Of a DNA stretch of 45,691 nucleotides, positions 27,082 through 45,691 are shown piece after piece. The number at the start of each line of letters is the position of its first letter. Position 1 is the stretch's first letter. A program made the translations under genes and the position numbers. The stretch is from Sulfitobacter sp. (GTDB lineage Bacteria; Pseudomonadota; Alphaproteobacteria; Rhodobacterales; Rhodobacteraceae), in NCBI GenBank assembly GCA_013002405.1, contig JABDKA010000221.1, forward strand, positions 1 to 45,691, written 5' to 3'. The notes beneath the pieces are model-generated. The model did no database searches. It was not told the origin of the DNA and saw only the letters and a list, made by a program, of their open reading frames with translations.

Positions 27082-28347
27082 TCACCCAGGAATCGACCCG
27101 ATCAGGATCGCGCGAAAATCGTTCACGTTCGTCCCCGTAGGTCCGGTTACGAACAGATCGCCGATGCTTGCGAAGGCCGAATAGGCGTCATTGTCCTGCA
27201 GCGCGCGCTGCGGATCGATGCCCGCCGCCCGCATCCGGCCCGCAGTGCCGCTATCCACGAAGGCACCTGCGTTGTCCTCTGACCCGTCGATCCCGTCCGT
27301 ATCGGCGGCCAGGGTCACCATCCCCACCACCCTCTCAAGCGCCAGAGCCAGGGACAACTGAAACTCAGCGTTGCGCCCGCCGCGCCCCTTGCCGCGCAGG
27401 GTGACCGTTGTCTCTCCTCCCGAAAGAAGCACCACAGGCGCGGCGTAGGGAAAGCCGCTTTCGGCCACCTGCCGACCCAGGGCAGCGTGGACCAGGGCCA
27501 CATCCCGGGCCTCCCCTTCAATCCGGTCCGACAGCACCCAGGCATTTACCCCTCGCGCCCGCGCCATGTCTGCCGCAGCGGCAAGAGATATAGCGGCGGA
27601 GGCAATCACCCGGATGTCACTTTCCGGGTGGCCCACGCCGGGCTGCTGATGCACAAGCCCTTCCAGGTAGACCGCGCAGGCCGGGGGCAGGGCGATGCCC
27701 CGCGCCGCAATCATGTCACGGACCATCGCGGGATCGGGGCGTTCCAGAATGGTGGGGCCCGAAGCCACCTCGCCCGGCGCATCCCCCGGTACGTCTGAGA
27801 CCATGAGGCTCACCACCCGCGCAGGTGCGGCCAGCTCCGCCAGCCTGCCGCCGTTGATGCCGCTGAAACACTTGCGGATATCATTCATTATCGAAATCGG
27901 CGCGCCCGAGGCGAGCAGGGCTTCATTGAGCCCTTGAAGATCGGCAAGCGTCAGCCCTTCGGGCGGATCGACCAGAAGGGATGACCCGCCCCCGCAGATA
28001 AGCGCGATCACCAGATCGTCCTGTCCCAAACCCAGCACGGCCTTTTTCAGTGCTGCACTGGCCGCAACGCCCGCCGCATCCGGCACGGGATGCGCCGCCT
28101 CCAGCACCCTCATCTTTTTACAGGGCGCGGCATAGCCGTAGCGGGTGACCACGACGCCCTCAAAGTCGGCCGGCCAAAGCGTCTCAAAGGCCTGGGCCAG
28201 CTGCGCCGCGCCCTTGCCCGCGCCCACCACAACGGTGCGGCCCTTCGGGGGATCCGGCAGTTGCCCTTCCAGTGCCTTCATCGGGTCCGCGGCATCGACC
28301 GCCGCCTGAAAGAGATCGGCCAGAAACTGACGTTCGGGGCTGCTCAT
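27082..28347 (-). CDS. Glycerate 2-kinase (GckA/TtuD, MOFRL family)
   Basis: 421-residue enzyme of the GckA/TtuD family phosphorylating D-glycerate to 2-phosphoglycerate; older annotations say hydroxypyruvate reductase. N-terminal half: VVVGAGKGAAQLAQAFE, ALICGGGSSLLVDPPEGL and NDIRKCFSGINGGRLAELA, in which the Lys in IRKCFS is the conserved catalytic one. C-terminal MOFRL half: VLLSGGETTVTLRGKGRGGRNAEF, ADTDGIDGSEDNAGA and VTGPTGTNVNDFRAILIG. It is divergent from the sulfatase operon, sharing a 99-bp intergenic region. A link to the beta-hydroxyacid dehydrogenase of that operon is possible, since glycerate is the classical product of tartronate-semialdehyde reductases of that fold, but this is inference. 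Confidence 0.93.
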   Translation of the reverse strand: MSSPERQFLADLFQAAVDAADPMKALEGQLPDPPKGRTVVVGAGKGAAQLAQAFETLWPADFEGVVVTRYGYAAPCKKMRVLEAAHPVPDAAGVAASAALKKAVLGLGQDDLVIALICGGGSSLLVDPPEGLTLADLQGLNEALLASGAPISIMNDIRKCFSGINGGRLAELAAPARVVSLMVSDVPGDAPGEVASGPTILERPDPAMVRDMIAARGIALPPACAVYLEGLVHQQPGVGHPESDIRVIASAAISLAAAADMARARGVNAWVLSDRIEGEARDVALVHAALGRQVAESGFPYAAPVVLLSGGETTVTLRGKGRGGRNAEFQLSLALALERVVGMVTLAADTDGIDGSEDNAGAFVDSGTAGRMRAAGIDPQRALQDNDAYSAFASIGDLFVTGPTGTNVNDFRAILIGSIPG

Positions 28348-28446: not shown

Positions 28447-30099
28447 ATGAACATTCTATTCATCATGTACGACCAGCTGCGCTTTGATTATCTCAGCTGC
28501 GCGGGGCATCCTCATCTCTCTACACCCAACTTTGACCGGGTCGGATCGCGCGGCGTGCGCTTTACCAATGCTTTCGTCCAGTCGCCCATCTGCGGGGCCA
28601 GCCGGATGTGTTTTTACACCGGGCGATACGCCTCCAGCCACGGGGCCCAGTGGAACGGCTTTCCCCTCCGGGTGGGGGAGCAGACGATGGGCGACCATCT
28701 GCGCAAGCTTGGGATGGGCTGCTGGCTGATCGGCAAGACCCACATGAAGGCCGATGCAGAAGGCATGGCGCGGCTGGGGCTGTCACCCGACAGTGAGATC
28801 GGCGCGCGTCAGGCGGAATGCGGGTTCGACGTCTGGATCAGGGATGACGGCCTCTGGGCGCAGGGGCCGGATGGCTTCTATGACGAACGCCGCTCGCCCT
28901 ACAACGAATACCTCAAGACCAAGGGGTACGACGGGGAAAATCCCTGGGCCGACTATGCCAATGCTGGTATAGAGGAGGACCAGATCGCTTCGGGCTGGAT
29001 GTTTCGGAACGCAGACAAGCCCGCCAATATTCGGGAGGAGGACAGCGAGACCCCCTGGCTCACGTCCCGTACCATCGACTTTATCGAACAAGCCGAAGGA
29101 CCCTGGTGTGCTCACGTCAGCTATATCAAGCCGCACTGGCCTTACATCGTTCCAGCACCTTATAACGCCATGTACGGGGCCAATCACGTGCCGCAGGCGG
29201 TCCGCTCCGAGGTGGAGCGCGAGGATCCCCACCCGGTCTTCGGTGCCTACATGCAAAACAAGATTGCCCAGGCTTTCCAGCGGGACGAGGTGCGCGAAAA
29301 AGTGATCCCGGCCTATATGGGCCTGATCAAGCAGTGCGACGACCAGCTTGGCCGCCTGCTCGACCACCTCGAAGAAACGGGCCGGATGGAGGACACGATG
29401 ATCGTGCTCACCTCCGACCACGGCGATTATCTGGGCGATCACTGGCTGGGAGAGAAGGACCTTTTCCATGAGCCTTCGGTGAAGATCCCCCTGATCATCT
29501 ATGATCCACGGGCCGAGGCCGATGCGACCCGCGGCACGACCTGTGACGCCCTGGTGGAAAGCATCGACCTGGCCGCCACTTTCGTGGAGGCGGCAGGCGG
29601 CGAGGTGCCGGATCATATCATCGAAGGGCGGTCGTTGCTGCCCTGGCTGCGCGGGGAAAAACCGCCCTGGCGTGACTTCGCAATCAGCGAATATGACTAC
29701 TCCGCCACACCGCAGGCGGTGAAACTGGGACTACAGCCACGCGATGCGCGGCTCTTCATGGTTTTCGACGGGCGCTACAAGCTGATGCACGCCGAAGGGG
29801 GCTTCCGGCCCATGCTCTTTGATCTGCAGGAAGACCCGGAGGAGTTTCACGATCTGGCCAAGGGCTCGGACCACTCCGAGGAGATCGAAAGGCTCTACGG
29901 TCTGCTGGCCCAATGGGGGCGGCGCATGTCCCAGCGGGTAACCAAGTCAGAGGCCGATATCGAGGCGATGCGGGGCCGGTCCCTGCGCCGGGGCGTGCTG
30001 CCCTTCCTCTACGACGGATCCGAGGTGGCGGAGGAGCTTTCGTCCAAGTACCGCGGCCCGGTGCGCCAGCGCCACGGGGAGAGCGATGGCACATCCTGA
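28447..30099 (+). CDS. Sulfatase / phosphonate-monoester-hydrolase-like enzyme
   Basis: 550-residue member of the alkaline-phosphatase/sulfatase superfamily, hydrolysing sulfate, phosphate-diester or phosphonate monoesters. N-terminal metal residues are in MNILFIMYDQLRFDYL (D9). The formylglycine segment is PICGASRMCFYTGRY with C49-G-A-S-R53, so the usual CxPxR Pro is Ala. The late metal motif is LTSDHGDYLGDH followed by GEKDLFHEP. Segments such as PHWPYIVPAPYNAMYG and LFDLQEDPEEFHDLA resemble Rhizobium phosphonate monoester hydrolase. No signal peptide is present, so it should be cytoplasmic. Start at 28447 follows GGGGAGG; the frame is open further upstream without similarity. It overlaps the next gene by 14 bp. 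Whether the true substrate is a sulfate ester is inferred from the neighbour. Confidence 0.9.
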   Translation: MNILFIMYDQLRFDYLSCAGHPHLSTPNFDRVGSRGVRFTNAFVQSPICGASRMCFYTGRYASSHGAQWNGFPLRVGEQTMGDHLRKLGMGCWLIGKTHMKADAEGMARLGLSPDSEIGARQAECGFDVWIRDDGLWAQGPDGFYDERRSPYNEYLKTKGYDGENPWADYANAGIEEDQIASGWMFRNADKPANIREEDSETPWLTSRTIDFIEQAEGPWCAHVSYIKPHWPYIVPAPYNAMYGANHVPQAVRSEVEREDPHPVFGAYMQNKIAQAFQRDEVREKVIPAYMGLIKQCDDQLGRLLDHLEETGRMEDTMIVLTSDHGDYLGDHWLGEKDLFHEPSVKIPLIIYDPRAEADATRGTTCDALVESIDLAATFVEAAGGEVPDHIIEGRSLLPWLRGEKPPWRDFAISEYDYSATPQAVKLGLQPRDARLFMVFDGRYKLMHAEGGFRPMLFDLQEDPEEFHDLAKGSDHSEEIERLYGLLAQWGRRMSQRVTKSEADIEAMRGRSLRRGVLPFLYDGSEVAEELSSKYRGPVRQRHGESDGTS

Positions 30100-31336
30100 C
30101 CTGATTGCCCACCGTGCCCAGACCCGGCGCGACATCATCGCGCTGGCCCCCGGAATCTGGACGGCTGTCGGTTATGCCGCCTCCAACGTGCACATGATCG
30201 AAGGGGCCGGGACGGTCACAATCATCGACACCAGCGAATCCACCAGCGCGGCGGAGAACATCCTGGCCGGGTTCCGCATAAGATCGCCCAAGCCCGTGGG
30301 CCGGATCATCTATACCCACGCGCACCGGGACCATATCTCGGGCGCCAGCGTCTTTTCCGATGGCAGCCAGCCGATCTTGGCCAGCCATCTGCACCGGTCC
30401 GACCTTGTGGCGGTCGATGATCAGCCGCCTTTCCCGCACCGGGCGCTTGGCCGCCGCACCCAGGCGCAGTTCGGGTTCGGCCTGACAGCGGAGGAACGGA
30501 TTTCGCTTGGGTGCGGACCGGGCGACAGGCCGGTCGAGGGGTTGGGCGCGGGTTATCTGCATCCCACGCAGTTGGTCGAGGCGGACCGTGACATCGACCT
30601 TGACGGTGTCGCGGCGCGACTCATCCACGCGCCCGGAGAAACGGAAGATCATCTTTGTGTTTGGCTGCCAGACCAAGGTATCCTTTTCAGCGGGGATAAC
30701 TGGTACCATGCCTTCCCGAACCTCTATGCAATCCGGGGCACCGCTTACCGTGATTTCGGGGTCTGGGCAGAGAGCCTTGCCCTGCTGGAGGCTTTGGGGG
30801 CAGAGGTGCTGGCCCCCGGTCACACGCGCCCCGTGACAGGCAAGGCGCAGGTGCGGGAGGTGCTAAGAACCACACGCGCCGCGATCCTGCACGTGATGGA
30901 ACAGACAGCCCTTGGCATGGACAGAGGCCTGCCGATGGATGACATCGTTGCAGGGCTGACCCTGCCCGAGGAATTGGCGGCAAAGCCATGGCTCAAGGAG
31001 TTCTACGGCAAGATCGGCTGGGCCGCCCGCGCCTTCGCGGCCGGAACACTTGGCTGGTACGAGGGTAATCCGACCCAGCTCGGCACCTTGTCTAAGGCAG
31101 AGCGGGCCGCGCACGTGGCGGCGCTGGCTGGCGGGACTGATGCGTTGATGCGTGCGGCGGAACAGACCCAGGATGTGCAATGGCGGCTGGAGCTGTGCGA
31201 TCACCTCATCGCGCTTCAGGCCCCCGCCAAGGGACTGAAGGCGCAGGCCATGCGGGCGCTTGCGGAAGTTGAGATCAACGCCACCGCGCGCAACACTTAC
31301 CTGTGGGAGGCCAAACGTCTGGAGCAAGAGGCGTGA
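30086..31336 (+). CDS. Alkyl-sulfatase-like MBL hydrolase, short form
   Basis: 416 residues matching the first two domains of type III alkyl sulfatases (SdsA1/BDS1). The metallo-beta-lactamase domain (about 1-255) has THAHRDHISG with H78, H80, D82 and H83, then APGETEDHL and SGDNWYHAFPNLYAIRGT, which parallels the AEN...NIYTLRG region of SdsA1, and EVLAPGHTRPV. The alkyl-sulfatase dimerisation domain (about 270-416) shows LPEELAAKPWLKEFYGKIGW, GWYEGNPTQL and LAGGTDALMRAAE. The SCP2-like C-terminal domain of full-length enzymes (about 650 residues) is absent, and there is no signal peptide. It overlaps the sulfatase by 14 bp and the TRAP permease by 4 bp. Likely a cytoplasmic Zn hydrolase of a small sulfate ester; substrate unproven. 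Confidence 0.88.
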   Translation: MAHPDLIAHRAQTRRDIIALAPGIWTAVGYAASNVHMIEGAGTVTIIDTSESTSAAENILAGFRIRSPKPVGRIIYTHAHRDHISGASVFSDGSQPILASHLHRSDLVAVDDQPPFPHRALGRRTQAQFGFGLTAEERISLGCGPGDRPVEGLGAGYLHPTQLVEADRDIDLDGVAARLIHAPGETEDHLCVWLPDQGILFSGDNWYHAFPNLYAIRGTAYRDFGVWAESLALLEALGAEVLAPGHTRPVTGKAQVREVLRTTRAAILHVMEQTALGMDRGLPMDDIVAGLTLPEELAAKPWLKEFYGKIGWAARAFAAGTLGWYEGNPTQLGTLSKAERAAHVAALAGGTDALMRAAEQTQDVQWRLELCDHLIALQAPAKGLKAQAMRALAEVEINATARNTYLWEAKRLEQEA

Positions 31337-33426
31337 GCGAGGGGCCGAATGTCGAAAAGCGGCTCGCCGATGTGGTGAGCGTCATCTTTGTGCTGGTCAT
31401 CACCCTCTACGCGGCCTCCGGTCCGCTCTCTGACTTGGTGCGCTGGATCATCGAGACGACGACACCTGACTGGGAAGAGCTGTCGCGCCGGGACCGGCGG
31501 GGCATTCTGCGGGGGCACTGGCTGGGGTCGGCGCACAGATCATTCGAGCGTGGGTTCATCCTGCCCACCGGGCTGATCCTGGGCCTTCCGATTGTTCTTT
31601 CCTTCGTCATCTGTCTGCTCAATCTCAAGGGGTCGCGGGCCATCCATCTTGGCCTTACCGCGCTTTCGTCGCTGGTCTTTGCCTTCTGGATCGTGAACCT
31701 CTTCGCGCTTGACGCGGGCGTGCTGCCCTCTGCCCGGCCTGTTGATTACGTGATGTTCCCGATTGCAACGGCCATCACCCTCTACCTCACCTGGCGTTAT
31801 TTCGGCGGCTTCATCGTCGCCTTCTGCCTCTTCTGGCTGGTCTATTTCTTCGTTCGGGGTTGGCTACCTGAGTGGAGCGGCATCCTTGCAGGATCGGACT
31901 CCACCCTTGCGCAGTCCATGCGGTCGATGGTGTTGAACTTCTGGGCCCAGACGGGGGGCATGTTCGGCCAGCCGCTACAGGTGGTTTCGGGCAACGTGCT
32001 TATATTCATCGTCTTTGGTGCTGTGCTCATGGCCTCGGGTGCCGGGACATTGCTGTTGAAGATCGCGAACCGCCTGACCGGGGGTTTGACCGGCGGGGCG
32101 GCCCACGCGGCGGTGGCAAGCTCCGCGCTTTTCGGGACCCTATCGGGGGCGGCCATATCCAATGTGGTTTCCACCGGCGTGATGACCATACCCGTGATCA
32201 AGAAGAGCGGCTTCAAACCGACCTTCGCCGGCGCGGTGGAGGCCGCGGCTTCTACCGGTGGGCAGATCATGCCGCCGGTCATGGGCGTGGTGGCCTTCTT
32301 CGTGGCGGGGCAGATCGGACTGGAGTATCGCTATATCGTCGTGGCCGCCATCGTACCTGCGGCGATGTTTTATTTCGGCACCTTCCTGACGGTCTACTTT
32401 GAGGCGCGCAGACAGGGCGTCGGTGCCCTGCCCCCCGAAGAGCGCCCGGGGCTTAATGCGCGCGAGAGGCTGCAGTGTCTGGTCTTTATCCTGCCGCTCG
32501 GCACGCTCAGCTTCATGCTCTTCGTCCAGCCGTCGGTGGCCAAGGCGGGTTTTTACGGCTTCCTTGTTGCTCTGGTCAGCAGCCTTGTCCTGTTCCCGGC
32601 ATTCCGATCCTGGCGCAGGCTTTACCGCGCCTTTGCCGAAGCCGGGCGGATGTCGGCAACCATCGTTGTGATCGTGGCGGCCATCGGTCTGATTGTCGGG
32701 CTGATCCAGGTGTCGGGCTTTTCGGGGCGCCTGTCGCTTCTGCTGACGCAACTTGCCGACGGACCGCTTTTCCTGACGCTGGTGATCCTGGCGCTGGGCT
32801 CCATCGTGCTGGGCATGGGCCTGCCGCCGGGGGCCACCTATTTCATCATCGTGATCGCCCTTTCATCGGGCATTGAGGCTGTCGGCATCGCCCCGCTGAC
32901 CCTGCACCTTTTCGTGGTCTTCTTCGCCGTCATTTCAACCGTGACGCCGCCCGTGGCCCTGGCCGCCTTTGCTGCTGCGCCCATCGCAGGTGCGGACCCG
33001 ATGCGGACGGGGATCGAGGCCGCGCGTCTCGCCATCGCGGGCTTCCTCATTCCCTTCGTCTTCGTTTACCACCCGGCGGTGATCTACAAATTGCAGACGC
33101 TCTTCGCCTGGTTCGGAGGGGAGGTGCCCACCTCCCGCGCGATGATTGATGTCACGACGGTCAGCTGGTTTGACCTTGGATGGGCCGTGCTTGCCTTCAG
33201 CATTGCGATCTGGCTGATCGCCTCGGCGCTAGCGGGGTTTGAGCGGAACCGCCTGCACCCGTTGGAGCGGCTCTTCCGTCCTATCGTCGGCTTGGCGCTG
33301 ATCTTTCCGCAGATGGCAATCGCGCTGCCTGCCCTGGTAGCTTCTGTCCTGCTTATCGTTCTGCACCGCTTTTTGGGCGGCGCCCCATCGGCGGTGGAGA
33401 GAAACACCGATATAGAGAACGCATAA
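31333..33426 (+). CDS. Fused TRAP transporter permease (DctQM, TAXI type)
   Basis: 697-residue inner-membrane protein combining the small (DctQ-like) and large (DctM-like) TRAP subunits, with about 15 or more hydrophobic segments. The large domain carries the conserved SSALFGTLSGAAISNVVSTG and AASTGGQIMPPVMGVVAF motifs and a second copy-like region VLGMGLPPGATYFI and STVTPPVALAAFAAAP, typical of TAXI-TRAP permeases driven by Na+ or H+. GTG at 31333 is chosen because it overlaps the TGA of the MBL gene (GTGA) and has GGAG upstream; another GTG lies 30 bp earlier. It lies 19 bp before its binding-protein gene. It should import the same compound that the two hydrolases act on. Confidence 0.93.
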   Translation: MSEGPNVEKRLADVVSVIFVLVITLYAASGPLSDLVRWIIETTTPDWEELSRRDRRGILRGHWLGSAHRSFERGFILPTGLILGLPIVLSFVICLLNLKGSRAIHLGLTALSSLVFAFWIVNLFALDAGVLPSARPVDYVMFPIATAITLYLTWRYFGGFIVAFCLFWLVYFFVRGWLPEWSGILAGSDSTLAQSMRSMVLNFWAQTGGMFGQPLQVVSGNVLIFIVFGAVLMASGAGTLLLKIANRLTGGLTGGAAHAAVASSALFGTLSGAAISNVVSTGVMTIPVIKKSGFKPTFAGAVEAAASTGGQIMPPVMGVVAFFVAGQIGLEYRYIVVAAIVPAAMFYFGTFLTVYFEARRQGVGALPPEERPGLNARERLQCLVFILPLGTLSFMLFVQPSVAKAGFYGFLVALVSSLVLFPAFRSWRRLYRAFAEAGRMSATIVVIVAAIGLIVGLIQVSGFSGRLSLLLTQLADGPLFLTLVILALGSIVLGMGLPPGATYFIIVIALSSGIEAVGIAPLTLHLFVVFFAVISTVTPPVALAAFAAAPIAGADPMRTGIEAARLAIAGFLIPFVFVYHPAVIYKLQTLFAWFGGEVPTSRAMIDVTTVSWFDLGWAVLAFSIAIWLIASALAGFERNRLHPLERLFRPIVGLALIFPQMAIALPALVASVLLIVLHRFLGGAPSAVERNTDIENA

Positions 33427-33445
33427 GAAAAGGGAGAGAGAGAAC

Positions 33446-34420
33446 ATGCGACACTTCACACTTGCGGCCATCGCGGCCCTCGGCCTTGCGGGCGGGACCG
33501 CCGCGCAGGAGACGACCTACAAGATGGCCACCATTGCGCCCAGCCTGGGGCAGGCCATCACCATGGCGACCTTCGCTAACATCGTCTCCGACGGTCTGGA
33601 GGATGTGGAGATCGAGGTCAGCGGCGGCGGTGCCGCGACCGTGCACCAGCTTGAGGTAGGCCGCGGCAACCTCGACTTTGCCATGACCTCACCGCTGATC
33701 TACAATTTCATGGCCGATGGCCGGATCATGTACAAGAATGAGGCCGACGCGCCCGAGGCCGCAAAGAATGTGCGGCTGCTGATGTGGTTTCCCTACGGCC
33801 AGTATCACTATGCCGTTCGCGCCGACAGCGATATCGAAACGCTGGACGATATCGAAGGCACGACCGTCTTTCTGGGTCCGCAGGGCGGCGGGGCGTTCAA
33901 CGGTGCCAAGGGCTGGATCGAGGCGACAACGGGCCTTGTCGTGAATGAGGATTACCAGGCGATCAAGTCGAACTGGCAGACCGGTTTTCAGGCCTTCCTC
34001 GATGGCAAGATCGACATGTACGTGAACGGCTGCCTTGATCCCTGCCAGCAGTTCATCCAGTTCACCGAGACGGAAGATCTGCGTTTTGTTGGGCCAGAGA
34101 GCCACGAGGGCGAACGCGTGACAAAGTGGCTGGGCAAGTTCCGCTTCCTCGAAGAGATCCCGGCCGGGCAATACGCGGGGCAGAAAAACGAGGGCCCGGT
34201 AATGTCGACCAACACCGCCGTCGGCATTGCCGTGCGCGCGGATATGGATGAGGATACGGTCTACCGGATCACCAAGCATTTCTGGGACAATCTGGAGAGT
34301 GTCACCTCGGACGCGCCCTGGGCCAAGGCGCTGGATGTGAACTTTGCCGCATCCAAACGCGGTCAAATTGAGCTGCATCCCGGTGCTGCGCGCTACTACA
34401 GGGAAGTGGGCGGAATGTGA
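33446..34420 (+). CDS. TAXI-family TRAP solute-binding protein
   Basis: 324-residue periplasmic receptor. The signal peptide MRHFTLAAIAALGLAGGTAAQ is cleaved near AAQ. The mature protein shows the TAXI pattern: ATIAPSLGQAITMATFANIV, EVSGGGAATVHQLEVGRGNLDFAM, then LDDIEGTTVFLGPQGGGAFNGAKGWIEA. Single sites NGCLDPCQQF and late MSTNTAVGIAVRADM are also seen. AGGGAGAGAGAG upstream is a strong ribosome-binding site, suggesting high expression. It partners the fused permease 19 bp upstream. Known TAXI ligands include glutamate and alpha-ketoglutarate; no sulfated ligand can be deduced from the sequence. Confidence 0.93.
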   Translation: MRHFTLAAIAALGLAGGTAAQETTYKMATIAPSLGQAITMATFANIVSDGLEDVEIEVSGGGAATVHQLEVGRGNLDFAMTSPLIYNFMADGRIMYKNEADAPEAAKNVRLLMWFPYGQYHYAVRADSDIETLDDIEGTTVFLGPQGGGAFNGAKGWIEATTGLVVNEDYQAIKSNWQTGFQAFLDGKIDMYVNGCLDPCQQFIQFTETEDLRFVGPESHEGERVTKWLGKFRFLEEIPAGQYAGQKNEGPVMSTNTAVGIAVRADMDEDTVYRITKHFWDNLESVTSDAPWAKALDVNFAASKRGQIELHPGAARYYREVGGM

Positions 34421-34475
34421 TCGGCACGCCAGCGGCGCCAAGGGTCCGGTCGGGTTGAAAGGGTAGGTCGAAAGC

Positions 34476-35354
34476 ATGGAAACAGGGATCATCGGTGTGG
34501 GTCTGATGGGCCAGGGCATCGCTCGGAACGTGCTGAAAGGCGGGCACGGACTGCGCTTTCTGGAACATCCCGGCAATCAGCCGGTGGACGAGATCATGGG
34601 CCTTGGTGCGGTCCCCTGCGCAACTCCTGCGGCAGTGGTTGAGGGGGCAGAGGTGATCATCCTTTGCGTCACCGGCTCGGCCCAGGTGGAGGCTGTGCTG
34701 ACGGGGCCGGAGGGTGTGCTCTCGGCGCTCGCGCTGGACGCGGTGATCGTCGATTGCTCGACCTCCCTGCCCGACAGCACCCTTGCAATGGCCAAGGCGA
34801 CGGTCGCTGCGGGCGGTCATTTCCTCGACGCCCCGATGACCCGCACCGCGGCCCACGCCCAGGCGGGAACGCTGAATCTGCTGGTTGGGGGAGAGGCTGA
34901 GGTGCTCGCCCGGGTCGCTCCGGTGTTGGACAGTTTCACCGAGGCGATCGAACATGTGGGGCCGGTCTGCACCGGTCACCGCATGAAGCTTTTGCACAAC
35001 TACGTCTCCATCGGCTTCATGACCCTGCTGGCTGAGGCGGCGGCGCAATCGGCGGACGCGGGCGTCGATCCAGAGGTGCTGGTCAAGGTCCTCGGGCAAG
35101 GGGGCGGTGCCTCGGTTGCGCTGGACCGTCTGGCCCCCTTCATCACCGAAGGCGACCGCAGCGGTCTGCCCTTCTTCGTCTCCAACGCGCTCAAGGACAT
35201 CGACTACTACCAGCAGATGAGCAGGGCGGCGGGCGCACAGACAAGGATCGCTGACGGGGTGATGTCGGCCCTGCAGGAGGCCGTGGAAGCAGGCCACGGT
35301 GAGGCCTGGCTGCCGCAACTGATCCGGGAGTTCCGGCGCAAGACCGAAGGATAG
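34476..35354 (+). CDS. Beta-hydroxyacid dehydrogenase with YihU-like Arg123
   Basis: 292-residue NAD(P)-dependent dehydrogenase of the 3-hydroxyisobutyrate/tartronate-semialdehyde reductase family. Rossmann loop GVGLMGQG lies at the N-terminus, and the catalytic Lys171 is in GHRMKLLHNY with Asn175. The substrate loop, normally DAPVSGG, reads DAPMTRTAAHAQAGTL, with T122-R123-T124. By my recollection of E. coli YihU (sulfolactaldehyde reductase), that enzyme has G122-R123-T124-S125 at the same positions, with Arg123 holding the sulfonate. YihU's Asn174 is His here, so the substrate may differ. The gene follows the TAXI receptor by 55 bp in the same operon. It could reduce or oxidise a C3/C4 hydroxy compound with a second anionic group; sulfonate, carboxylate and sulfate are all possible. 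Confidence 0.9.
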   Translation: METGIIGVGLMGQGIARNVLKGGHGLRFLEHPGNQPVDEIMGLGAVPCATPAAVVEGAEVIILCVTGSAQVEAVLTGPEGVLSALALDAVIVDCSTSLPDSTLAMAKATVAAGGHFLDAPMTRTAAHAQAGTLNLLVGGEAEVLARVAPVLDSFTEAIEHVGPVCTGHRMKLLHNYVSIGFMTLLAEAAAQSADAGVDPEVLVKVLGQGGGASVALDRLAPFITEGDRSGLPFFVSNALKDIDYYQQMSRAAGAQTRIADGVMSALQEAVEAGHGEAWLPQLIREFRRKTEG

Positions 35355-35448: not shown

Positions 35449-36600
35449 ATGGGCGAAAGGGGTTTTGCCACTTCGGAGTTTGAAGCACGGCTGGCGCGGG
35501 CGCAGGCCATGATGGCGGCGCATGATCTTGACGCGCTTTTTCTGACGACCGAACCCGAGGTGCGTTATTTCACCGGATATCTGACCCGCTTCTGGGCAAG
35601 CCCGACGCGGCCCTGGTTCCTGATTGTGCCCGCGCGTGGCAAGCCGATTGCGGTGATACCGGGCATCGGGGCCGCACTGATGGCGCAAACCTGGGTCGAA
35701 GACATCCGCACCTGGAGCGCCCCCGATTTGCAGGACGACGGTGTGAGCCTTCTGGCCGAAACCCTGCGCGAGGTGGTGCCAAGGGCAGGACGGATCGGCC
35801 TGCCGGACGGGCATGAGACGCATCTGCGCATGCCTCTGGCGGATCTTGAGCGGGTACGATCAGCGCTGGAAGGTCGTCGGATCGTCGGAGACGCGGGCAT
35901 CATCCGTGCCCTGCGCATGGTCAAGTCCCCCGCAGAGATCATGAAGATCGAGACCGCCTGTGCCATCGCCGCGCGCGCCTTCGCACGGGTGGCCGAGTTC
36001 GCGCGCGAGGGCGCCGCCCTCGACCGGGTGTTTCGGCAGTTCCAGATGACCTGCCTCGGTGAAGGGGCGGATTGGGTGCCTTACCTCGCGGGCGGGGCAG
36101 AGCAGGGGGGGTATACGGATGTCATCTCTCCCGCGCGGGAGATACCCTTGGTGTCCGGCGATGTCCTGATGCTTGACACTGGCCTGGTCTGGGACGGCTA
36201 CTTTTGCGACTATGACCGGAACTGGTCCGTCGGGGTGCCAGCACCCGTCGTTGCCACCGGTTTCGCCCAACTGGTAGAGGCCAGCGATGCGGCTTTCGGC
36301 ATTGCCCGCCCGGGGGCCACTGCGGCGGACCTGTTCCATGCCATGCAAGAAGTTCTGGCGCGGAACGGGGAGACGACGGATGCGGGAAGGCTCGGTCACG
36401 GGCTGGGCATGTCATTGACTGAATGGCCCTCTCTCATCCCGTCAGATCACACGGTGCTGGAGGTCGGCATGGTGCTGACGCTTGAGCCGGGGATCGCGCT
36501 CGGCGACAGGATATTGGTGCACGAAGAAGATATCGTGATCACCGAAAGCGGCGCGCGTTACCTCTCGCCGCACCTGGGACCGGAATTGGCGGTGATATGA
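35449..36600 (+). CDS. M24-family metallo-hydrolase (EutD/DoeA/creatinase-like)
   Basis: 383 residues with an N-terminal creatinase-type domain (LDALFLTTEPEVRYFTGYL) and a C-terminal pita-bread M24 domain. All five metal ligands are visible: D243 (LMLDTG), D254 (YFCDYD), H317 (LGHGLGM), E346 (TLEPGI) and E360 (HEEDIV), so it should bind two metal ions. The family includes Xaa-Pro peptidases, creatinase, ectoine hydrolase (DoeA/EutD) and DMSP lyase DddP; the length is near DoeA. GGAGGAA precedes the ATG by 8 nt. It overlaps an Asp/Glu-racemase-family gene resembling EutA, a pairing seen in ectoine-utilisation clusters. Amide or amidine hydrolysis of an imported amine-type compound is my inference. 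Confidence 0.85.
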   Translation: MGERGFATSEFEARLARAQAMMAAHDLDALFLTTEPEVRYFTGYLTRFWASPTRPWFLIVPARGKPIAVIPGIGAALMAQTWVEDIRTWSAPDLQDDGVSLLAETLREVVPRAGRIGLPDGHETHLRMPLADLERVRSALEGRRIVGDAGIIRALRMVKSPAEIMKIETACAIAARAFARVAEFAREGAALDRVFRQFQMTCLGEGADWVPYLAGGAEQGGYTDVISPAREIPLVSGDVLMLDTGLVWDGYFCDYDRNWSVGVPAPVVATGFAQLVEASDAAFGIARPGATAADLFHAMQEVLARNGETTDAGRLGHGLGMSLTEWPSLIPSDHTVLEVGMVLTLEPGIALGDRILVHEEDIVITESGARYLSPHLGPELAVI

Positions 36601-37307
36601 GCATCTTTCACTACACCCTTGATCAGGATGATCCCACGGTACCGCCGATGGGGCTGATCGTGCTTGCAGCGGATGAAACGCTGGAGGCGGATATGCGCGT
36701 GGCGATGGCCGATGTCGCCGCACCTCTCTATGTCACGCGCATTCCAAGCGCGCTTGAGGTGACGCCGGAAACCTTGAGCGCCATGGCGGGCCAGCTTTCC
36801 GCCGCGGCGGACCTGCTTCCCAAGGCCCGGCGCTTTGGCGTAGTGGGTTACGGCTGCACCTCTGCCAGTGCGATCATCGGGTCGAAAGCGGTTGCCGATC
36901 TGGTGCGCCAGACCTGTGATGTGGTGGAGGTAACCAATCCGCTGCGCGCCGCCATTGCGCATGCCAAACACCTGGGTCTGAGCAAGCTCGCGCTGTTGTC
37001 GCCCTACATTGAGCCGGTCAATGTGCCCCTGCGCCGGGGCTTTGCCGAGGCGGGTATATCCACGGATGAATTTGGCACCTTCGGCGAGGCGGAAGAAGCC
37101 AAGGTCGTCCGCATTGCCAGTAATTCCATTGTGGAGGCCGCCTGCACCCTTGGTGCGTCATCCGAGGTCGAAGGGGTTTTCCTCAGCTGCACCAATCTGC
37201 GGACCTTTGCGGCGATTCCCGAAATTGAACGCAGGATCGGCAAGCCGGTCCTCTCCAGCAACCAAGCCCTGGCCTGGCACATGAAGGTGCTGAATGATCG
37301 GGCTTAG
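36597..37307 (+). CDS. Asp/Glu racemase-superfamily protein (EutA/maleate-isomerase-like)
   Basis: 236-residue member of the Asp/Glu/hydantoin racemase superfamily, on the maleate isomerase/arylmalonate decarboxylase/EutA side. Two cysteines are in the positions of the catalytic pair: C87 in VGYGCTSASAIIG and C198 in VFLSCTNLRTF, followed by GKPVLSSNQALAWH. Between them is LALLSPYIEPVN. The start overlaps the M24 gene stop (ATGA), so the two are coupled. In ectoine-degradation loci EutA accompanies the M24 hydrolase; its own reaction there is not firmly known to me. It is followed by a 137-bp gap before the ABC transporter. Confidence 0.85.
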   Translation: MSIFHYTLDQDDPTVPPMGLIVLAADETLEADMRVAMADVAAPLYVTRIPSALEVTPETLSAMAGQLSAAADLLPKARRFGVVGYGCTSASAIIGSKAVADLVRQTCDVVEVTNPLRAAIAHAKHLGLSKLALLSPYIEPVNVPLRRGFAEAGISTDEFGTFGEAEEAKVVRIASNSIVEAACTLGASSEVEGVFLSCTNLRTFAAIPEIERRIGKPVLSSNQALAWHMKVLNDRA

Positions 37308-42895: not shown

Positions 42896-44218
42896 ATGAT
42901 CAGCCAGGAATTGAACGAACAGATCACCCGCACAGGTCCCGGCACAGACGCAGGCGCGGTCATGCGCCGCTATTGGCAGCCGGCCGCCCTGACCGAAGAG
43001 TTGAACGGCAACCGCCCCGTCGTCCCGGTGACGCTCTTGGGCGAAAAGCTGGTGCTGTTCCGCGACAATGACGGCGCACTGGGCCTGATCGACAGGCACT
43101 GCCCGCACCGGGGCGCGGACCTCTGCTACGGGCGGCTTGAGGACAATGGCCTGCGCTGTCCCTTTCACGGCTGGCATTTTGACCGCACGGGTCAGTGTGT
43201 CGAGCAGCCCGGAGAGCCCGAGGGCAGCCGCATGCACGAGCAAATCCGCAGCACCTCTTATCCGGTGATGGAGAAGAACGGTATTGTCTTCGCCTACATG
43301 GGCCCCGATGATCCGCCACCCTTCCCCAACTTCGATTGCTTTCGCGCGCCCGAGAGCCATGTCTTCGCCTTCAAGGGTCTGTGGGAATGCAACTGGCTGC
43401 AGGCCATGGAGGTGGGGATCGATCCCGCGCACGCCTCCTTCCTGCACCGCTTTCTCGAAGACGAGGACCCGGCCGACAGCTACGGCAAGCAGTTCCGCGA
43501 CAAGGCCGCCGACACCGACATGCCCATGACCCAACTGCTGCGCGACTATCCCCGCCCCGAGATCAGCGTGGAGGAAACCGACTACGGCCTGCGCCTCATC
43601 GCGCTGAGGCATCTGAGGGGCGGGCAGTCCCACATCCGCATCACCAACCAGATCTTCCCCGAGGCCATTTCCATCCCGATGAGCCGGGAGATGATCATCA
43701 CCCAGTGGCATGTGCCGATTGATGACGAGAACTGCTACTGGTACTCCATGTTCACCTCCTTCACGGGCCCCGTGGACAAGGGGAAAATGCGCGAACAGCG
43801 CCTCAAGGAACATCGCCTGCCGGACTACGCCCCCCTGAAGAACAAGCGTAACGATTACGGCTTCGACCCCGAAGAACAGCGGAGCGAGACCTATACGGGC
43901 ATGGGGCTCGATATCAACGTGCACGACCAGTGGGCGGTAGAGAGCCCCGGCGCAATCTTCGACCGCACGAAAGAGCATCTGGGCAAGACCGACGTCGCCA
44001 TCATCCGCTACCGCCGGATGCTGCGCGCGGCCATTGAGGCCCTGAAGGAAGGGCGGGAGGAAGAACTGCCGATGCGCAACGGCATCGACCCGACAGAGGT
44101 ACACGGCCCCATATCCAACGACACCATCGGCGATGGGGAAAACTGGCGGGAGGTGTCAGAGGCGAGCGACGCCGAACGCCGCTCCGCTTGTGCCGACTGG
44201 GACGCGACGGTGCCATGA
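42896..44218 (+). CDS. Rieske non-heme iron oxygenase, phthalate type
   Basis: 440-residue oxygenase component. The Rieske [2Fe-2S] ligands are C69 and H71 (CPHRGADL) and C88 and H91 (CPFHGWHF). The mononuclear iron facial triad begins with GIDPAHASFLH, giving D176, H179 and H184 in the expected DxxHxxxxH pattern. The length and N-terminal start (MISQELNEQITRTGPGTDAGAVMRRYWQPA) match phthalate-dioxygenase/vanillate-demethylase-like single-component oxygenases, which need a separate ferredoxin reductase; none is in this window. GGAGGAGG before the ATG is a very strong ribosome-binding site and decides the start over the upstream open frame. It is followed 19 bp later by a GS-like ligase, suggesting oxidation of a gamma-glutamylated amine. 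Confidence 0.92.
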   Translation: MISQELNEQITRTGPGTDAGAVMRRYWQPAALTEELNGNRPVVPVTLLGEKLVLFRDNDGALGLIDRHCPHRGADLCYGRLEDNGLRCPFHGWHFDRTGQCVEQPGEPEGSRMHEQIRSTSYPVMEKNGIVFAYMGPDDPPPFPNFDCFRAPESHVFAFKGLWECNWLQAMEVGIDPAHASFLHRFLEDEDPADSYGKQFRDKAADTDMPMTQLLRDYPRPEISVEETDYGLRLIALRHLRGGQSHIRITNQIFPEAISIPMSREMIITQWHVPIDDENCYWYSMFTSFTGPVDKGKMREQRLKEHRLPDYAPLKNKRNDYGFDPEEQRSETYTGMGLDINVHDQWAVESPGAIFDRTKEHLGKTDVAIIRYRRMLRAAIEALKEGREEELPMRNGIDPTEVHGPISNDTIGDGENWREVSEASDAERRSACADWDATVP

Positions 44219-44237: not shown

Positions 44238-45691
44238 GTGAGCGACGCGCGCGAACGCATCGCGGGCGGCAGGCTGACACGGCTTGGATTGCTCGACGAT
44301 GCCGCCCTTGAAGAGGTGCTGCACCTGCTGGAAGAGGTGGAGAGCCAGGGTGTTGAGACCCTGCGCGTTCTCTTTACGGATCAGCATGGCGTGTTGCGCG
44401 GCAAGACGCTGGTTGCCTCGGCCATTCCAGCGCTTTTCGAGGAAGGCCTCGCCGCCCCCTCCACGCTACTTTTGAAAGATACCTCCCACCGGACCGTCTT
44501 TCCTGTCTGGTCCGCCACAGGTGCCGTTGCCGGTGACATGCGCGGGGCAGGCGATATCCTCATGGTCCCCGATCCCGCCACCTTCCGCATCCTGCCCTGG
44601 TCCCCAGGCTCGGCCTGGATCCTCTGCGATCTGGCCTTTGCCTCGGGTCAAGAGATGCCCTTTTGCACCCGTTCGGTTCTGCGCCGTTCCATCGCAAGGC
44701 TCGCCGATCGGGGAATGAAGATGGTCGCGGGGCTTGAAGTGGAATTCCATGTCTACCGCGTCACCGACCCGCGCCTTGATCACGCGGGGGCGACCATGCC
44801 CGGTCAGCCGCCCCAGACGGAGAACATCGTCCAAGGCTACCAGTTCCTGACGGAACTACGTTACGACGCCATGGAGGACGTCATGGACAGCCTGCGCCGC
44901 ACCTGTGAGGGGCTGGGCCTGCCGCTGCGGTCGATGGAAGTGGAAATGGGGCCAAGCCAGTTCGAATTCACCTTCGATGCGGGCGATCCCATGGCGCAGG
45001 CCGATGCCATGGTCATGCTGCGCACCGCCTTCAAGGAGGTCTGCCAGCGCAAGGGTCTCCACGCGACCTTCATGTGCCGCCCGAACCTTGAGAATGCCGC
45101 GGCAAGCGGCTGGCACCTGCATCAGTCGCTTGTCTTGACCGAGAGTGGCAAGAACCTCTTTGTACCGGGCAAGAAAGACACCCTCAGCGAAACTGGCAGC
45201 GCCTGGGTCGCGGGGCTGCTGGCACACGCGGCCGAAAGCTGTCTACTGACCACACCTACGGTGAACGGCTATAAACGCTACCGCCCGCATCAGCTTGCCC
45301 CGGACCGCATTTTCTGGGGGAGGGATAATCGCGGGGCGATGATCCGGGCGCTTTGCGCGCCGGGGAAGGGGGCGAGCCGGATCGAAAACCGGGTGCCGGA
45401 ACCTGCGGCCAATCCTTATCTGGTCTTCGCGTCCCAGATCATCGGGGGTCTGGATGGCATCGCCCAGGGCCTGCAGGCACCGCCGCCCTGCGAGGATCCC
45501 TACGACGCCAGCGCTCTGCCGCTCCCCGACAGCCTGCTGGCCGCGATAGCGGCCTTCGAGAAATCCGCTCTCTATCGAGAGACCCTGGGGGATACGTTCG
45601 TCGACTATCTTTGTACCATCCGCCAGGCGGAGTGGGACCGTTATCACCAGACCGTTTCCGCCTGGGAGCAGCAGGAATACTTCGGCCTCTT
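44238..45691 (+). CDS. Glutamine-synthetase-like gamma-glutamyl ligase, 3' end at window edge
   Basis: GTG-initiated frame of at least 484 codons with no stop before the window end. The last residues WEQQEYFGL resemble a natural GS C-terminus, so only the final residues or stop are likely missing. Catalytic segments are intact: GLEVEFHVY (metal Glu, about residue 166), EVEMGPSQFEFTF, SGWHLHQSL (His near 290), NGYKRYRPHQLAPDRIFWGRD, and RIENRVPEPAANPY (Arg/Glu near 380). ATP-dependent gamma-glutamylation of an amine, as in PuuA, GlnA3/4, IpuC or AtdA1, is more likely than nitrogen assimilation. The reasons are its divergent sequence and its position after a Rieske oxygenase and an amine-type ABC importer. 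GAGGA precedes the start. Confidence 0.9.
   Translation, partial: MSDARERIAGGRLTRLGLLDDAALEEVLHLLEEVESQGVETLRVLFTDQHGVLRGKTLVASAIPALFEEGLAAPSTLLLKDTSHRTVFPVWSATGAVAGDMRGAGDILMVPDPATFRILPWSPGSAWILCDLAFASGQEMPFCTRSVLRRSIARLADRGMKMVAGLEVEFHVYRVTDPRLDHAGATMPGQPPQTENIVQGYQFLTELRYDAMEDVMDSLRRTCEGLGLPLRSMEVEMGPSQFEFTFDAGDPMAQADAMVMLRTAFKEVCQRKGLHATFMCRPNLENAAASGWHLHQSLVLTESGKNLFVPGKKDTLSETGSAWVAGLLAHAAESCLLTTPTVNGYKRYRPHQLAPDRIFWGRDNRGAMIRALCAPGKGASRIENRVPEPAANPYLVFASQIIGGLDGIAQGLQAPPPCEDPYDASALPLPDSLLAAIAAFEKSALYRETLGDTFVDYLCTIRQAEWDRYHQTVSAWEQQEYFGL

Follow-up and report, generated by a model that had tools for sequence, protein, structure and literature searches.

A conserved sulfatase, metallo-beta-lactamase and TAXI-TRAP gene tetrad in Sulfitobacter and its relatives, with a proposed role in the uptake of aromatic sulfate esters

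A 45,691-nucleotide stretch of a Sulfitobacter sp. genome (assembly GCA_013002405.1, contig JABDKA010000221.1, positions 1 to 45,691; hereafter the window) encodes, side by side, a type I sulfatase (SULF), a short alkylsulfatase-like metallo-beta-lactamase (MBL), a fused TAXI-type TRAP permease (TRAP) and a periplasmic TAXI solute receptor (TAXI). A preliminary description, made from the sequence of the window alone, had joined these to a beta-hydroxyacid dehydrogenase (HAD) in a five-gene operon; elsewhere only the first four are conserved as a unit. Judging from protein families and gene neighbourhoods, we think it rather probable that this tetrad forms a cassette by which small aromatic sulfate esters are taken up and desulfated. 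The imported compounds are probably sulfated aromatics such as seaweeds produce, and the most likely substrates would be sulfated phenols that also bear a (sulfated) benzylic or allylic alcohol.

Gene order and conservation of the tetrad

On the plus strand of the window, SULF (28447-30099; 550 amino acids) overlaps MBL (30086-31336; 416 amino acids) by 14 nucleotides, and MBL overlaps TRAP (31333-33426; 697 amino acids, GTG start at 31333) by 4. A gap of 19 nucleotides separates TRAP from TAXI (33446-34420; 324 amino acids), and one of 55 separates TAXI from HAD (34476-35354, plus strand). The open reading frame (ORF) list, as well as a gene finder based on codon usage for which window genes including these five were the training set, returned the same five genes with the four spacings first given, which were exact. 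The proposed five-gene operon stood in part, i.e., the five genes are present, but two more co-directional genes follow closely, encoding an M24 peptidase (35449-36600) and, directly after it, an AMDase/EutA-like protein (36597-37307). A promoter and terminator scan of the locus gave no signal above shuffled sequences.

Conservation was assessed in two overlapping sets of genomes. A scan of named genomes, with alignment of MBL, kept 80 MBL loci of 290 relatives, and these were split at 57% MBL identity into group A (at least 57%; n = 44) and group B (n = 36). Neighbours in the 80 loci were counted by tblastn at thresholds of at least 30-44% identity over half coverage; earlier counts from ORF clusters are lower bounds, as ORFs shorter than 100 amino acids had been dropped and the gene score was crude. 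A second scan covered the family, sampled at about one genome per genus, and its loci lie partly on the same contigs as those of the named genomes, the two sets not being additive.

Both flanks were available for 37 of the group-A loci, and 18 of these hold the full tetrad in the same order and on the same strand, with intergenic gaps of 5-62, 5-83 and 20-104 nucleotides. Because the same order and strand recur in 18 loci with short gaps, the tetrad is more than a chance arrangement, and the idea that the genes travel together was borne out for it. Carriers are recorded as Rhodobacterales, Stappiaceae (Roseibium/Labrenzia), one Rhizobiaceae bin and one Geminicoccaceae bin, and include Shimia abyssi and Roseibium album. 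Partial forms occur among the 37 as well: SULF-MBL without a downstream TRAP in five, of which one (L156) has TRAP-TAXI upstream, and MBL-TRAP without SULF in five. A rearranged order, TRAP-TAXI-SULF-MBL, is found in L156, L167 and L174. The co-occurrence of all five genes that had been expected applies to the first four only, since neither HAD nor the M24 peptidase, the AMDase-like protein or the glycerate kinase divergent from SULF (GLK) was found in any of the 80 MBL loci (tblastn, at least 40% identity, half coverage).

SULF is more widespread than MBL. Relatives of SULF (E 1e-60) occur at 87 places in 63 of 145 related genomes, and neighbourhoods were examined around 40 of these places, while MBL was found in 23 of the 394 family genomes. 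The family scan gave 25 MBL places, of which 21 are covered by 20 stretches and two are the window and a locus with the order SULF-MBL-TRAP-TAXI (L033); those in G354 and G190 were left out. In group B, SULF is present in 19 and a TAXI in 17 of the 36 loci, and genes for GntR, DctPQM, glutathione S-transferase (GST), aldehyde dehydrogenase (ALDH) and double-OsmC proteins are common. A second type of MBL cluster can be recognised here (L107, L109, L110, L112, L113, L115 and group-B loci), with members that variously include two GSTs, a double-OsmC protein, a DctPQM TRAP, a GntR regulator and a second type I sulfatase.

Properties of the two hydrolases and the importer

By sequence, SULF is a relative of the Ruegeria (Silicibacter) pomeroyi arylsulfatase SpAS2. 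It has a PF00884 Sulfatase domain (136.8 bits), and its phmmer match to SpAS2 (4UPL) spans residues 1-537 of 550 (E 2.3e-233, 779 bits). The nearest solved proteins are SpAS2 and SpAS1 (4UPI), dimeric arylsulfatases in which the nucleophilic Cys and the metal-binding DH motif of SULF are also present. The formylglycine motif of type I sulfatases follows the rule C-x-[P/A]-x-R, and C49-G-A-S-R53 of SULF agrees with it, the motif being CGASR in SULF versus CGSSR in SpAS1/SpAS2. D324-H325 align by motif with the metal-binding Asp-His of choline sulfatase. The same genome has a gene with the PF03781 FGE-sulfatase domain over cut-off (G000:C198); the domain is found in other enzymes too, and the protein is compatible with a sulfatase maturase without proving one. 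SULF scores under the NCBIfam equivalog cut-offs for PehA (285.2 against 900), choline sulfatase (197.4 against 433.45) and PRK13759 arylsulfatase (230.4 against 481). For SpAS2 itself, values of 2.1e5 on p-nitrophenyl sulfate, 4.0e2 on phosphonate and 5.6 on phosphate are reported (PMC12421950), the first being the same in PMC12917725, and with choline-O-sulfate choline was undetectable (PMC5870055). No natural substrate for SpAS1 or SpAS2 is stated in the excerpts of the literature consulted on those enzymes. Unlike them, SULF is tied to an importer, to a second hydrolase and, in relatives, to aromatic catabolism. In a SULF tree, built to tell gain of the MBL-TRAP-TAXI block next to an existing SULF from its loss in other genomes, the window copy sits at a fork where neither grouping with the tetrad clade (approximately unbiased test, p-AU 0.415) nor grouping with the same-genus genome G049 (0.226) was rejected. 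The tree left out matches of fewer than about 470 residues, those with stops, exact duplicates and, apart from four outgroups, those of less than 66% identity.

MBL is, on sequence evidence, of alkylsulfatase ancestry, yet it fails two defining features of those enzymes. It has PF00753 and the dimerisation domain PF14863 (Alkyl_sulf_dimr; 106.4 bits, cut-off 26), retains HxHxDH, and its AlphaFold model (pLDDT 86.7) retrieves SdsAP, SdsA1 and Pisa1 first in a fold search. The MBL fold, HxHxDH and dimerisation domain are thus held in common with the type III alkylsulfatases SdsA1, Pisa1, SdsAP and YjcS, but those are 630-668 amino acids long versus 416 here, and identity is about 25-28%. Type III alkylsulfatases typically carry a C-terminal SCP2-like domain, and no Pfam domain follows the dimerisation domain of MBL (residues 284-414), where the protein ends. 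In an alignment of 26 sequences (the window and 25 of the 80 loci), H78, H80, D82, H83, H189, D204 and H246 are invariant (26/26), and R217 (26/26) and N212 (25/26) are kept and shared with SdsAP and Pisa1. H189 stands opposite a Glu in SdsAP and an Asp in Pisa1, and P211 (26/26) aligns with chain residue 317 of 4AV7 (Pisa1), which we take to be the general-acid His of that enzyme; in SdsAP and Pisa1 these are metal and acid positions. Relative to these enzymes, therefore, MBL has His at an acidic position and Pro at the presumed general-acid position. The Pisa1 mechanism is described as including a His that protonates sulfate, and background hydrolysis of benzylic and allylic sulfates is mentioned in the same source (PMC3920027). 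As such sulfates are activated esters, a weaker acid may suffice for them.

TRAP matches TIGR02123 (433.5 bits, cut-off 320.65) and TAXI matches TIGR02122 (127.6 bits, cut-off 84.35). The model of TAXI (pLDDT 91) is nearest in fold to the TAXI receptors 1us4, 8u79, 9ibo and 8s4j, most of them glutamate-binding by title, at about 20% identity. Residues of the glutamate site are given as Y45 and Q93 in VcGluP and Gln78 in TtGluBP (PMC11574862). In a weak, low-identity alignment with TtGluBP, Gln78 is opposite M80 of TAXI and the Tyr is opposite A37 (the latter by eye), and the glutamate-site residues are apparently not conserved, which would speak, if weakly, against glutamate as the ligand. For an aromatic acid, a TAXI-TRAP importer has already been put forward, i.e., opaL/opaN of Pseudomonas PTH10, which also consists of a TAXI receptor and a fused permease; unlike the tetrad it serves a phthalate pathway, and its transport is called uncharacterised there (PMC6362003). 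Among the five proteins a signal peptide is apparent, by eye, only in TAXI, which supports the early suggestion that both hydrolases would act in the cytoplasm, after import. The families and the recurring gene order likewise favour the view, taken from the start, of two unrelated putative sulfate-ester hydrolases with an importer of their own.

Aromatic catabolism and dehalogenases around the tetrad

Neighbours of the tetrad in other genomes point to aromatic catabolism rather than to hydroxy acids, and in some of those genomes downstream aromatic genes adjoin the cassette. A coniferyl-alcohol-dehydrogenase-like short-chain dehydrogenase/reductase (SDR) is present in 31 of the 80 MBL loci, 25 of them among the 44 in group A, and 33 of the 34 members of the SDR cluster match the coniferyl-alcohol dehydrogenase model NF009092 at E 1e-60 or better. 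The gene lies directly after TAXI (e.g., L119), after MBL (L139) or, where SULF is absent, before MBL (L128). The arrangement in L154 runs LigA-LigB-LigC-SULF-MBL-SDR-RdhA-GalB-LigK-GalD-LigI with all genes co-directional; LigA, LigB, LigK and the reductive dehalogenase RdhA belong to clusters with members over curated cut-offs, and GalB, GalD, LigC and LigI were named by eye. PobA occurs in three of the 80 loci (L133, L164, L183), the L164 copy being over cut-off.

SULF shows similar company where MBL is absent. In five of the 40 SULF loci, all from the genus of the window (L032, L034, L040, L042, L044), it stands beside homoprotocatechuate genes, with members of the HpaE and HpaD clusters over cut-off and an HpaH copy just under it (348.2 against 351.5). 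In L065, L066 and L068, a SulP-type permease (named by eye) comes after TRAP-TAXI-SULF, an arrangement that would suit export of the sulfate set free. Contig C187 of the window genome (L233, G000:C187:4500-23987) holds a second SULF, 59% identical, together with TRAP, TAXI, ALDH, an SDR over cut-off and a P450-reductase fusion; this genome has 55 matches to the coniferyl-alcohol-dehydrogenase model, one of them over cut-off. L233 also contains a 353-amino-acid gene without an NCBIfam match that is arylsulfotransferase-like by eye. Separately, substrates such as sulfated tyramine- or DOPA-type compounds are hinted at by a pyridoxal-dependent decarboxylase (of aromatic-amino-acid type by eye; NCBIfam matches under cut-off), which in L037, L040, L042, L043 and L044 is encoded next to SULF or within the adjoining homoprotocatechuate cluster.

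Several annotations of the aromatic neighbours did not reach NCBIfam cut-offs. The intradiol dioxygenase scored 145 bits where 359 are required, and the ALDH cluster as well as HpaF and HpaG also fell short. The best model for the ‘LigI’ copy is 4-sulfomuconolactone hydrolase and that for the ‘GalB’ copy is BshB1, in each case under the cut-off. A maleylacetate reductase candidate, matched by alcohol-dehydrogenase models only and under cut-off, was not used.

A link to dehalogenation appears at two scales. Within the examined MBL flanks (up to 10 kb) a fused RdhA is found in five of the 80 loci (L139, L154, L164, L169, L186). Across genomes, a TIGR02486 match is present in 23 of 23 MBL genomes, each in an open frame of at least 911 codons and 21 of them over the family cut-off. 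Dehalogenase matches occur in all 23 MBL genomes versus 153 of 371 others (p 3.8e-9). Since the 23 are also all DddP-positive, the comparison was conditioned on DddP, and within DddP-positive genomes it remains 23 of 23 versus 108 of 198 (Fisher p 2.5e-6), relatedness being controlled only by the sampling of about one genome per genus. In several genomes the matches counted (E 1e-20) comprise short frames of QueG type, of about 390-480 amino acids, and because these stayed in the comparison group the comparison is conservative. In the window genome the fused dehalogenase is on a third contig, apart from both the tetrad and C187. Two proteins of marine Rhodobacteraceae, whose fused homologues adjoin or co-occur with the tetrad, debrominate phenols: fused JtRdhA prefers 3,5-dibromo-4-hydroxybenzoate and 3-bromo-4-hydroxyphenylacetate (PMC10463259), and the oxygen-sensitive Ros_A3X954 debrominates 2,6-dibromophenol (PMC13101508). 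The word ‘sulfatase’ is absent from the main text of the latter paper.

HAD belongs to the beta-hydroxyacid dehydrogenase (3-hydroxyisobutyrate-dehydrogenase) superfamily (NAD_binding_2/11), and the first label, ‘YihU-like’, is right at that level but not beyond it, the sulfolactaldehyde reductase model NF012005 giving 137 bits against a cut-off of 348. Relatives of HAD occur in 16 of 98 related genomes. Eight of the 15 loci outside the window genome were examined, and in seven HAD adjoins ALDH and a DctP-type TRAP (named by eye), without SULF. The eighth, in same-genus G049 (L251, G049:C299:24000-43353), has SULF-HAD at the same place as the window, in the order GLK-SULF-HAD-ABC, and lacks both MBL-TRAP-TAXI and M24-AMDase, so that the window differs from it by two blocks. 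As the seven other HAD loci are without SULF, SULF-HAD is a local neighbourhood in two genomes of the genus. GLK, a MOFRL-type glycerate 2-kinase on the minus strand (27082-28347), is near SULF in same-genus L035, L038 and L039 too, as well as in L251. In L255-L258, HAD homologues have as neighbours a DctP-type TRAP and genes that resemble, by eye, those for ring-hydroxylating dioxygenases and CoA ligases, which would make another possible aromatic pathway. Further along the window, a polyamine-type ABC transporter comes next after the M24 peptidase and AMDase-like genes. Downstream of it are a Rieske oxygenase (42896-44215, plus strand) that resembles aromatic O-demethylases and has a C-terminal domain of LigXa type, and a glutamine-synthetase-like gene (44238-45689) that is cut by the window end.

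Proposed route, alternatives and significance

We propose that TAXI would bind a sulfated compound in the periplasm and that the fused permease would move it into the cytoplasm. There SULF, with formylglycine formed from C49, would cleave an aryl sulfate at the S-O bond, as its homology to SpAS2 suggests, and MBL, a predicted two-metal hydrolase, may take off an alkyl or benzyl sulfate, a step of which we are less sure. The freed aromatic alcohol could then be converted to a hydroxybenzoate by the coniferyl-alcohol-dehydrogenase-like SDR and ALDH, and the fused reductive dehalogenase would remove halogen where needed, before protocatechuate-type ring fission. A more specific version, put forward tentatively and with less than even confidence, makes the tetrad the entry step of a marine route mineralising seaweed bromophenol sulfates, e.g., lanosol-4,7-disulfate. 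This compound carries exactly two sulfates, an aryl and a benzyl one, and would thereby account for the pairing of a type I arylsulfatase with an alkylsulfatase-like MBL, and it suits that pairing better than the other compounds considered. Following import by TAXI-TRAP, SULF would take the 4-sulfate and MBL the 7-sulfate, the SDR and ALDH would oxidise C7, the dehalogenase would strip bromine, and LigAB, or PobA then LigAB, would open the ring; by chemical reasoning, lanosol once debrominated and oxidised would yield protocatechuate, the entry to the Lig genes. The evidence is for the most part also compatible with unhalogenated sulfated phenolics, such as zosteric acid and the sulfates of hydroxybenzyl or coniferyl alcohols.

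A number of observations weigh against these proposals. Neither SULF nor TRAP adjoins MBL in nine of the 37 two-flank group-A loci, and MBL is present in only one of the 40 examined SULF loci (L033). The Rhizobiaceae and Geminicoccaceae tetrads come from metagenome bins, and the SULF of L162 is almost identical to that of the Roseovarius bin L150, so binning error is possible. The window tetrad has no adjoining SDR, ALDH or RdhA, its co-directional downstream genes being HAD, M24 and AMDase-like, and none of nine aromatic markers was found in 31 of the 80 MBL loci (the ALDH marker is generic, and some loci are short contigs). RdhA is near MBL in only the five loci named above, two of which (L139, L154) have near-identical SULF, and within 10 kb of MBL in only two of the 23 family genomes (G293, G496). 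To these may be added the limited control for relatedness in the Fisher test and the proline that MBL has at the Pisa1 acid position.

That proline, with H189 at the position of the SdsAP Glu and Pisa1 Asp, also lends some plausibility to a different role for MBL, in which it would hydrolyse, by glyoxalase-II-like chemistry, a thioester, ester or lactone that arises further along the pathway, and SULF alone would desulfate the imported compound. GSTs and the double-OsmC protein in group-B clusters would suit such chemistry, but GSTs are in none of the 44 group-A loci, the fold search places SdsAP, SdsA1 and Pisa1 on top, and N212 and R217 are kept. Moreover, the acesulfame sulfatase is an MBL with the ligands H61, H63, D65, H66, H172 and H251 (PMC10413263), so a His-rich site is compatible with sulfatase action. 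We regard this role as possible but doubtful. It is far less likely, and in our view very improbable, that an imported aliphatic organosulfate is desulfated to a hydroxy acid for HAD and GLK, as was originally suggested. Both genes do adjoin the tetrad in the window, and GLK-SULF-HAD stand together in G049, but this product could not be upheld given their absence from all 80 MBL loci, the seven HAD loci with ALDH and DctP-TRAP instead of SULF, the low score of HAD against the sulfolactaldehyde reductase model and the aromatic-catabolic nature of the informative neighbours elsewhere. For HAD, M24 and AMDase, interpretations of sulfolactate or ectoine type were rejected with it, these genes being beside MBL in 0/80 loci and under equivalog cut-offs.

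We consider it just as remote that the substrate is a phosphorus compound, with SULF hydrolysing a phosphonate monoester or a phosphodiester. The superfamily is promiscuous, and SULF does match the PehA model and the phosphonate monoester hydrolase structures 4upk, 2vqr and 2w8s. These structures score about 200 bits, however, versus 779 for SpAS2, the PehA score is far under its cut-off, SpAS2 favours sulfate over phosphonate (2.1e5 versus 4.0e2; PMC12421950), and a SulP-type permease is found beside TRAP-TAXI-SULF in three loci.

Among known systems, the acesulfame sulfatase cluster of Bosea and Chelatococcus likewise has an MBL-type sulfatase gene beside importer genes, but it differs in its ABC importer, its 283-amino-acid Mn-dependent enzyme and its amidase partner (PMC10413263). 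An acesulfame-type identity was rejected because importer and enzyme differ. A search of the open-access literature, with subscription journals mostly outside it, gave neither this cassette nor bacterial sulfatases tied to bromophenol sulfates in the titles and abstract openings among the matches listed. To that extent each part is of a known kind, and the combination and the pathway are new.

If the proposal is true, the cassette would explain how marine bacteria could take up sulfated phenolics and use them as carbon, and sulfate-ester hydrolysis would be joined to reductive debromination in one pathway. It would give a natural role to SpAS2-type arylsulfatases, so far models of promiscuity, and would suggest a ligand class for a TAXI-TRAP transporter. 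The genes could then serve as a set of markers for following what becomes of algal bromophenol sulfates.

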